Assembly: GCA_017447445.1 (NCBI GenBank)
Contig: JAFSNK010000027.1
Coordinates: forward strand, 1-64,000
Reading direction: 5' to 3'
Length of the DNA: 64,000 nt
From: Clostridia bacterium
Lineage (GTDB): Bacteria > Bacillota > Clostridia > Oscillospirales > CAG-382
Shown here: positions 10,290 to 11,867 of the stretch, piece by piece
Position numbering within the stretch: position 1 is the first letter of the stretch
Layout of the letters: each line of letters opens with the position of its first letter
Notes under the pieces: generated by a model
What the model was told of the DNA's origin: nothing
Databases searched by the model: none
Seen by the model: only the letters and a program-made list of their open reading frames with translations
Position numbers and translations under genes: made by a program

Positions 10290-10362
10290 CCGCTTTGGCC
10301 GCAAGCAATAACAAAAAACGAATAACTTCGTAAGAAAACGCCCCGAAGGGCAAATTTCGTTG

Positions 10363-10392
10363 AAAAAGCACTTGCTTTCGCAAGTGCTTTTT
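10363..10392 (-). terminator. Strong intrinsic terminator ending the tRNA-Ser/repeat transcript
   Basis: AAAAAGCACTTGC - tttc - GCAAGTGCTTTTT. On the minus strand it closes the region downstream of the tRNA and three repeats. Symmetrical A/T tails let it also stop plus-strand transcription from the large sigma gene. Confidence 0.8.
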
Positions 10393-10406
10393 CTGACGGA
10401 GAAGGT

Positions 10407-10489
10407 GGGATTCCTTGCCTGCGGGCAAGCCGCGGCATGGCTCTGACGTGCCCCCGGCACGTCATTCACTTCCATGCCGTTCGAATCCC
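10407..10489 (-). repeat. Structured repeat core, unit 3 (terminator-proximal)
   Basis: Base-for-base identical to the core of unit 1 at 10688-10770. Folding on the minus strand: closing stem GGGATTC/GAATCCC, a long arm CGGCATGG/CCATGCCG capped by GACGTGCC/GGCACGTC, and a short hairpin CTTGCC-cgca-GGCAAG. Confidence 0.75.
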
Positions 10490-10547
10490 TTCAAATCAAC
10501 AAACAAGCACCCCGTAAAGGGGGTGCTTGTTTGTTGGCGGAGAAGGT

Positions 10548-10630
10548 GGGATTCGCCCGCCTGCGGGCGGAGCGGTGGCGCGCTCTGACAGTCCCCCGGA
10601 CTGTCATTCACCACGCGCCCTTCGAATCCC
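10548..10630 (-). repeat. Structured repeat core, unit 2 (diverged sequence, same fold)
   Basis: All three internal stems differ in sequence from units 1 and 3 yet still pair: GGCGCG/CGCGCC, GACAGTCC/GGACTGTC and CCGCC/GGCGG. The closing stem, the GTGAAT and AGAG internal-loop bases, the 3-nt cap and the CGCA loop are unchanged. This pattern of paired changes points to selection on RNA (or single-stranded DNA) structure. Confidence 0.75.
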
Positions 10631-10687
10631 CTCAAATCAACAAGCAAGCACCCCGTGAAGGGGTGCTTGTTTGTTGGCGGAGAAGGT

Positions 10688-10770
10688 GGGATTCCTTGCC
10701 TGCGGGCAAGCCGCGGCATGGCTCTGACGTGCCCCCGGCACGTCATTCACTTCCATGCCGTTCGAATCCC
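10688..10770 (-). repeat. Structured repeat core, unit 1 (tRNA-proximal)
   Basis: Lies 140 bp from the matching position of the tRNA T arm. Same predicted fold as unit 3: closing stem 10688-10694 with 10764-10770, hairpin 10695-10710, long arm 10714-10760 with a nested stem 10726-10744. Confidence 0.75.
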
Positions 10771-10814
10771 CTCAAATCAACAAATAAGCACCCCGTGAAG
10801 GGGTGCTTGTTTGT

Positions 10815-10906
10815 TGGCGGAGAAGGTGGGATTCGAACCCACGAGGCGCTATTAACGCCTACACGATTTCCAGTCGTGCGCCCTCGACCAGCTAAGCGAC
10901 TTCTCC
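10815..10906 (-). tRNA. tRNA-Ser (anticodon GGA)
   Basis: The 92-nt minus-strand gene starts GGAGAAGTCGC, has the acceptor pair GGAGAAG/CTTCTCC, anticodon loop CTGGAAA (anticodon GGA, reads UCC/UCU), a long variable arm of the class II type (AGGCGTTAATAGCGCCT), T loop TTCGAATC and an encoded 3' CCA. The 20 bases at its 3' end are duplicated in the repeats immediately downstream. Confidence 0.95.
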
Positions 10907-11012: not shown

Positions 11013-11681
11013 TTAAATCACTTTCGCAAGAACCAGCAAAAGCAGCACCAGCGCGGCGAGCGCGGCAAGCGCGACCGCGGTGGAAACGAAACCGAAGCCG
11101 CCGCCCGTTCCTTCGCGCTCCCGCACGAGCCCCGCCCGGCGCAGCGCGTTCACCGCGGGTTTATAAATAAGATAAGCCGTCGCGGCGTTTATCCCGCCTT
11201 TTACAAGGTTGAACGGCAGGAACACCGTCGCGAGCATACCTGCCACCGCCTCCCGCGTGATATTCTGCCCGATCGACTGAAAATAAAGCGGGGTGACGAG
11301 ATAGTTCCACAGCACCATGACCGCCGCCATACACAGCACCCCGGCTCCGAGCCCGATAAGCGCCCCCGCGCGCGTGCGCTTCTTTTTGTAAATAAACGCC
11401 GCGGGCAGCGCGAACGCGCAGGTGGAAACCACGTTCATTATAAATCCGTAAACGCCGGTGGCGCTTATTGTGACCATCTCTATCGCCGAGACGAGCGCCG
11501 CGATCAGCAGACTCGTCGCCGGGCCGAAAATAAAGCCCGCTATCGCGATGACCGCGTCCTTCGGCTCGTAGCTCAGAAAGCCCGCCACCGGGGGGACGAA
11601 CTTGAACGCGACCACCAGCACGAACGATATCGCCGCGAGCATCGCGGTGACCGCCATATATTTTATCGATTCCTTTTTCAT
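11013..11681 (-). CDS. ribU: RibU-like ECF transporter S component (riboflavin)
   Basis: A 222-residue integral membrane protein with about six hydrophobic segments (for example residues 7-30, 40-60, 62-85 and 190-220). It has the S-component pattern KYMAVTAMLAAISFVLV at the N-terminus and GFIMNVVSTCAFALPAAFIY in the middle. S components bind a vitamin and dock to a shared EcfAAT module, which is not in this window. Riboflavin specificity is inferred mainly from the FMN riboswitch directly upstream. The ATG at 11681 has GGAGGTG 5 nt before it; the longer open frame runs into the riboswitch and is rejected. The tail after residue 175 is Arg/Gly-rich before the last helix. Confidence 0.85.
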   Translation of the reverse strand: MKKESIKYMAVTAMLAAISFVLVVAFKFVPPVAGFLSYEPKDAVIAIAGFIFGPATSLLIAALVSAIEMVTISATGVYGFIMNVVSTCAFALPAAFIYKKKRTRAGALIGLGAGVLCMAAVMVLWNYLVTPLYFQSIGQNITREAVAGMLATVFLPFNLVKGGINAATAYLIYKPAVNALRRAGLVREREGTGGGFGFVSTAVALAALAALVLLLLVLAKVI

Positions 11682-11692
11682 CGCACACCTCC

Positions 11693-11727
11693 GAAAAACA
11701 AAAGCCCCGAAGCAAAACGCCCCGGGG
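11693..11727 (-). terminator. Riboswitch-controlled terminator
   Basis: Minus-strand stem CCCCG...CGGGG followed by CTTTTGTTTTT, between the FMN aptamer and the ribU ribosome binding site. It fits transcription attenuation when FMN is bound. Confidence 0.6.
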
Positions 11728-11751
11728 AGAACAAAACGGCGCTGATAAGCG

Positions 11752-11862
11752 CGGTCCCTCCCATCCCGACTGTACGGTCGGTACCGGAATCGCACCGGTT
11801 CGACGCAAACGCGCTCGCGGACTGTAACCGCCGGTGGGGAATCGCACCCCGCCCCGAAACCG
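11752..11862 (-). promoter_or_regulatory. FMN riboswitch (RFN element)
   Basis: The minus strand carries the RFN hallmarks in order: GGGGCGGGGTGCGATTCCCC, ACCGGCGGTTACAGTCCGCG, AACCGGTGCGATTCCGGTAC and CGACCGTACAGTCGGGATGG, closed by the P1 pairing CGGTTTC/GGGACCG. FMN binding would lower expression of the downstream S component. Confidence 0.95.
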
Positions 11863-11867
11863 TTTGA

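Follow-up and report, generated by a model that had tools for sequence, protein, structure and literature searches.

A candidate mobile palindrome framed by copies of the adjacent tRNA end in Clostridia

The window, a stretch of 64,000 nt from contig JAFSNK010000027.1 of a Clostridia bacterium, carries on its minus strand an intact tRNA-Ser(GGA) gene with an encoded CCA end (10815..10906; ARAGORN; Rfam RF00005, 54.8 bits), the target of the array described here. The consensus sigma-70 promoter noted upstream in a preliminary description of this DNA was confirmed at 10993-10965 on the minus strand, with a perfect TTGACA-17-TATAAT arrangement (12/12 positions; one found versus 0.3 expected) and a TG preceding the -10 element. 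Three tandem units follow the gene, each composed, in the direction of the tRNA, of a terminator-like hairpin, a 10-nt antisense of the tRNA T-loop and T-stem (S'), a core (66, 65 and 66 nt, respectively) and a copy of the tRNA 3' end (S).

All features of the array lie on the minus strand. Unit 1 opens with a terminator-like hairpin and linker (10773..10814; called by a terminator scan at 10808-10786, 9 pairs), to which the hairpins heading units 2 and 3 are homologous. It continues with S' GGGATTCGAA (10761..10770), antisense to tRNA nt 54-63 and matched to the respective tRNA at 71 loci, and a core of subtype alpha (10695..10760; 89.6 bits with our covariance model R1, and recognisable by its fold), which comprises a P1/P2 arm with an AAGTGAA/GAG internal loop and a P3 arm with a CGCA loop. 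The unit ends with S GAATCCCACCTTCTCCGCCA (10675..10694), an exact match to the tRNA end. Unit 2 consists of a hairpin and linker (10631..10674; scan call at 10669-10645, 10 pairs), the same S' GGGATTCGAA (10621..10630), a core of subtype beta with other stems and the same constant loops (10556..10620; R1, 98.9 bits), and S CGAATCCCACCTTCTCCGCCA (10535..10555), which matches the tRNA from nt 56. In unit 3, the hairpin and linker (10490..10534; inverted repeat I8, 17 nt, 100% complementary) precede S' GGGATTCGAA (10480..10489), an alpha core identical to that of unit 1 (10414..10479; R1, 90.2 bits) and S GAATCCCACCTTCTCCGTCA (10394..10413), so that the array has an A-B-A order with beta in the middle. 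A final hairpin, GAAAAAGCACTTGC..GCAAGTGCTTTTTC (10362..10393; inverted repeat I11), resembles one that stands directly 3' of tRNA-Ser genes without units (L025, L033).

This anatomy agrees with the earlier account of three tandem units behind tRNA-Ser, for which we measured start-to-start spacings of 141 and 140, and with its 83-bp segment GGGATTCGAA...GAATCCC, which has exactly this length in all units and is the same in units 1 and 3. The copy of the tRNA end reported for every unit is exact in units 1 and 2, whereas in unit 3 it differs by one mismatch (CCGTCA instead of CCGCCA). That account did not include the S' before each core. It had envisaged a single RNA carrying the tRNA and all units; a transcript spanning all of these is doubtful, since the linker hairpins are terminator-like and the terminator scan detected two of the three. 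Open reading frames through the units read antisense tRNA. Elsewhere in the window, an FMN riboswitch (RF00050, 103.8 bits; 11749-11865, minus strand) lies before a membrane-protein ORF (11013-11795) that may be a riboflavin transporter, to judge from its position and appearance. At gathering score, Rfam yields only the tRNA and this riboswitch in the window, and the units are without an above-threshold match.

Each unit folds as a three-way junction in which S' and S pair to form the closing stem P0 around the P1/P2 arm, which carries a constant asymmetric purine internal loop (AGTGAAT/AGAG), and the P3 arm with its CGCA loop. Fold z-scores are -3.6, -2.9 and -4.0 for units 1 to 3. Unit 2 had been described as differing in three stems that still pair; the stem pairs are as claimed, and it adopts the same junction. 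Among 122 distinct sequences, 93.5% of cells pair, changes on both sides occur in 24 of the 26 pairs, and the covariation score is 0.516 compared with 0.051-0.090 for slid partners, in an alignment that was fitted to the covariance model and therefore leans towards it. A MAFFT alignment of the 16 founder sequences gave 0.387 versus at most 0.091. The loops stay constant while the stems covary, and P0 itself pairs in 96% of cells, with double changes in six pairs. The constant purine loop and the long-term covariation suggest selection on structure, which is not required of a purely selfish relic.

The core is not confined to this array. A DNA search within the same genome (G000) placed it behind tRNA-Leu(GAG) and tRNA-Gln(CTG), in both cases between an S' and an S that correspond to the tRNA concerned. 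In total the genome holds seven copies, namely the three of the array, one each behind Leu, Gln and Trp, and one (L069) with a tRNA-type S' and S and no tRNA in the 865 nt of upstream contig. Of the genomes searched with model R1, which was built from 16 copies, 13/24 in the genus, 24/63 in the family and 75/295 in the order had matches, as did 8 of about 390 others sampled from the class; these numbers come from searches that differed in sampling and filters. The covariance-model search proposed earlier thus returned homologues whose stems are kept, not broken, by compensatory change. The targets of the core comprise about 25 tRNA isoacceptors and one tmRNA (L158), and the named records among the matches listed are uncultured Clostridia, many of them Oscillospiraceae, mostly from herbivore gut or rumen. 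Near tRNA genes, 84 copies lie in sense orientation with the tRNA upstream, six in antisense with the tRNA upstream and one in antisense with the tRNA downstream. The earlier proposal that tRNA ends were targeted as a structured element spread is supported by the many copies, the compensatory changes, the preference for the tRNA 3' side and the single orientation.

Of 196 distinct pattern matches, 78 lie within 700 nt of a tRNA, whereas for 94 the available 700 nt contain none. By a crude motif rule, 80 of the 118 tRNA-less matches were classed as REP-like intergenic palindromes; several of the others carry a tRNA- or tmRNA-type S. At two loci without a tRNA nearby, phage genes (L173) or, judged by eye, a recombinase-like ORF (L285) intervene before a tRNA-type S. 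Fifteen IMG/VR contigs carry the core; in the only one read, L173, tail- and endolysin-like genes (by eye) precede the units. Searches of a phage and a plasmid collection gave no match, and a phage or plasmid origin was rejected. Integrase-, recombinase- and phage-like ORFs (by eye) occupy such tRNA ends in L337 (G009), L285 and L173, and in the latter two, full-size mobile elements precede the element at the place where the tRNA is expected. Separately, in L089, L090 and L345 the core lies in antisense at a partial copy of tRNA-Leu (D-arm region), either inside it or next to it, and in tandem in L090.

The relation of the frame to the target was scored on 71 first units behind 24 isoacceptors. 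S' matches the antisense of nt 54-63 of the preceding tRNA at 0.89-0.99 and drops to 0.52 at nt 64; at the informative positions 57, 59 and 63 the match is 0.93, 0.97 and 0.89, compared with 0.55, 0.52 and 0.59 when other tRNAs are used. S matches nt 57-76 of the preceding tRNA at 0.80-0.96 (control with other tRNAs about 0.40-0.80), and all 71 loci combine an intact tDNA with a displaced 3' fragment S running from nt 56/57 to 76. Individual genomes carry identical or near-identical cores behind more than one tRNA. G232 has one and the same 66-nt core behind tRNA-Arg(ACG) and behind tRNA-Met, and S' agrees with 20 contiguous nt of the former tRNA and with 16 of the latter; identical or near-identical cores with S' and S matched to each tRNA were also found behind Met and Pro (G027), behind Lys, Arg and Gln on one contig (G142), and behind Ser-GGA (L017) and Ser-GCT (L159) in G028. 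Where the T-stem reads CTCTC (G002, G006), S' (GAGATTC) and S (GAATCTC) differ accordingly. It is implausible that S' adjusted by point mutation while the core stayed identical. As S' and S are re-matched around one core from tRNA to tRNA, the core appears to move, its frame being copied from the target and the tRNA staying intact. At orthologous tRNA-Ser sites within the genus, some are empty, some hold another core type and one, by eye, is occupied by a tyrosine-integrase gene.

The copied segment may extend further. In 18 of 50 units, several of them in arrays, the hairpin after S is homologous to, and in the same orientation as, the hairpin after the tRNA, so the terminator can be part of what is directly duplicated. 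From sequence comparison we infer a net change, central to our reading, that would be S-H / S'-core / S-H, that is, duplication, inversion, duplication.

Based on these observations, we propose the following hypothetical sequence of events, in which (i) a structured palindromic core of about 65 nt would move at the DNA level to the 3' end of a tRNA or tmRNA gene; (ii) S', S and the duplicated terminator would derive from the target, on insertion or shortly after it, through local duplication-inversion-duplication, the step creating S' being one that we infer; (iii) either fold-back synthesis on the tRNA end or T-loop recombination would do the copying; and (iv) arrays would subsequently grow and be shuffled by recombination between direct repeats. 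The left edge of S fits the T-loop crossovers of tRNA-borne islands (PMC4383910). The core being geneless, the enzyme would have to be supplied from elsewhere, unless a host recombination or replication function does the work. Insertion would be nearly harmless because tRNA and terminator are kept, which would explain survival at essential genes, and the model requires no host benefit. Together with the patchy distribution and the fixed orientation, the observations above incline us, with modest confidence, towards a mobile palindrome that is non-autonomous, acts on the T-loop side of the tRNA gene and becomes fixed through fold-back copying or recombination in the T-loop. The more specific proposition, in which a conserved hairpin core, once next to a tRNA, induces one inverted and one direct copy of the tRNA end, so that the closing stem comes from the target and the tRNA is spared, would amount to a novel chemistry of insertion; we offer it tentatively, and we expect it to be wrong somewhat sooner than right.

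The best-surviving alternative, although unlikely, is that the units are functional RNA within a read-through transcript of the tRNA, in which S' pairs with the tRNA T-arm or with S and the unit might thereby control how the tRNA folds, is processed at its 3' end or decays. The strong covariation with constant purine loops would suit such a role, as would the exact complementarity of S' to the T-loop and the perfect tRNA promoter, and no terminator separates tRNA and unit at a few loci of one family (L161-L163); in family f13, some loci lack a terminator and lie inside tRNA operons. However, a terminator-like hairpin with a T-tract precedes the unit at 48 of 71 loci by a strict test, a rule that misses imperfect stems, and at most of the others by eye. 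G-U pairs make up 1.2-1.5% of the standard pairs in core stems P1-P3, compared with 4-9% in the tRNA stems of the same loci, which is an indirect argument, and the same core is found in intergenic REP-like palindromes without any tRNA. The usual terminator, the rarity of G-U pairs and the REP-like palindromes thus point to a palindrome that is mobile as DNA rather than to RNA excised from the transcript of the tRNA, and they likewise speak against the earlier idea that tRNA-processing enzymes release the units from a precursor of about 540 nt. The patchy occurrence even at a single orthologous tRNA and the filling of the same frame by unlike cores also count against read-through RNA.

A second alternative is that the units behave as integron-like cassettes: a unit of tRNA 3' half, terminator, S' and core would be cut out in circular form and enter the T-loop by the action of a tyrosine recombinase that reads the folded S'-core-S as IntI reads attC, thereby restoring the tRNA and building arrays. 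Such insertion would yield the observed array anatomy; the start of S falls in the T-loop, where integrases have a known subsite (PMC4383910); attC sites are hairpins that are recognised by their structure and vary at the tip (PMC2727003); and the core is asymmetric and singly oriented. A cassette would, however, bring its own S and S', so that identical cores with arms fitted to each new tRNA are not expected, and carriers such as G015 have a single tyrosine recombinase, of Xer-like size (assigned to Xer by length only). We therefore regard this explanation as quite improbable.

The search for a mover gave no resident candidate for the mobile palindrome. The inserted part, about 85-140 bp, contains no plausible gene, and in particular no integrase gene. 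The general tyrosine integrase domain PF00589 is present in 23 of the 24 genus genomes, carriers and non-carriers alike, which removes a dedicated tyrosine integrase from consideration, and a reverse transcriptase was rejected because RVT_1 is missing from G000 and most genus carriers. Movement of the units as REP elements by a RAYT (Y1 tyrosine transposase) was considered in view of their palindromic and intergenic character, the GTAG or GGAG just before the P2 hairpin in many copies, and the REP-like repeats that also contain the core. No Y1 transposase (PF01797) was found in G000, which is 99.9% complete and holds seven copies, or in eight other carriers of the genus (G005, G006, G007, G013, G015, G016, G019 and G020); a resident RAYT is accordingly rejected as the mover. 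Subtype beta has GTGT/GTTG in place of GTAG. We judge the REP/RAYT explanation to be very improbable. Passive tandem duplication of a tRNA end with structure arising by chance, as in E. coli tyrT, would explain the direct repetition of tRNA end and terminator and the near-identical units in arrays, but is refuted as a full account by the core shared behind about 25 isoacceptors in many genera, fits neither the covarying stems nor the A-B-A arrays with unlike middle units in the window and L118, and, with hardly any probability left to it, can explain array growth only.

The frame is not tied to one core. A core of type C occupies the same S'...S frame at six loci (L026, L027, L037, L330, L335, L336); it lacks the AGTGAAT loop and has a long third arm with conserved GGAAGA- and GTATGGA-like internal loops. 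A larger core of type D, GTGTGCGTTTGTGAGCGCTTCC..GGAAGATGAAGCGAACAATAAGCGCTGGGCAGCGG, for which no Rfam match was obtained, has tRNA-end copies as its frame in L353, L354, L114 and L116, the last two with inverted second units. Since these unlike cores and that of L378 use the same frame, the S'...S frame may be a more general phenomenon than the core. Other repeats accompany the element: a palindromic repeat, GGGGTCCCCGAAAAT..TTTTTGGGG, is nested in element stems or loops in L009, L048, L059, L071, L073 and L155, and arrays of short palindromes (GTGAAATACGCC.., ATGATGT-GCGCTTCGCGC) stand behind a hairpin 3' of tRNAs in L014, L016, L020, L025 and L033. Gut-1 RNA (RF01706), a structured candidate non-coding RNA from gut bacteria (PMC2864571), matches directly behind a copy of S in L093 (1313-1429) and L113 (714-830) and near the element in L267 (4657-4727, minus strand). 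The window units do not match the Gut-1 model, and Gut-1 RNA may itself be one of these repeats.

What distinguishes the present case is a geneless sequence of about 65 nt at the ends of most tRNA types across an order of gut bacteria, with flanks apparently made from the target tRNA. If this is correct, DNA would be inserted safely at essential genes by a route not recognised before, which would point to a novel enzyme or replication process; assembly breaks and spurious ORFs beside tRNAs in gut genomes would be explained as well. Transfer RNA genes are favoured landing sites of mobile DNA, and the occupants of such sites known to us carry an integrase.

In E. coli, the tyrT locus with rtT RNA contains tandem repeats behind a tRNA gene, each with a copy of the tRNA 3' end, and in this respect resembles the array described here. 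To our knowledge, the tyrT repeats occupy a single locus, share no core among tRNAs and include no T-arm antisense; in contrast, the core of the present units appears to move among tRNAs and a T-arm antisense is present. The Rfam rtT model has no match in the window. REP/BIME repeats of RAYT (PMC2817692) are, like our units, short, imperfect intergenic palindromes that are multi-copy and mosaic, and they have GTAG before the hairpin; our units differ in that they are specific for tRNA 3' ends, have arms copied from the target, form a three-way junction and occur in carriers without a Y1 transposase. Genomic islands of the Islander type restore the tRNA, have a displaced 3' fragment marking their far end and use a T-loop crossover subsite (PMC4383910). 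The units share with such islands the whole tRNA, the displaced 3' fragment, the T-loop edge and the possibility of arrays, and differ from them in their length of 140 bp, the missing integrase, the extra inverted copy S' and the identical core at many tRNAs. Integron attC sites likewise have inverted arms closing a structured, variable and asymmetric tip, and form arrays next to a fixed site (PMC2727003), but the arms of our units are tRNA-derived and target-matched, and no gene cassette is present. A description of tRNA-associated repeats with such inverted-arm copying of the target is not known to us and was not found in the open-access literature searched, which is weak evidence for their novelty. 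The element behaves like a hybrid between REP-type palindromes and tRNA-site elements, without corresponding to the full definition of either.
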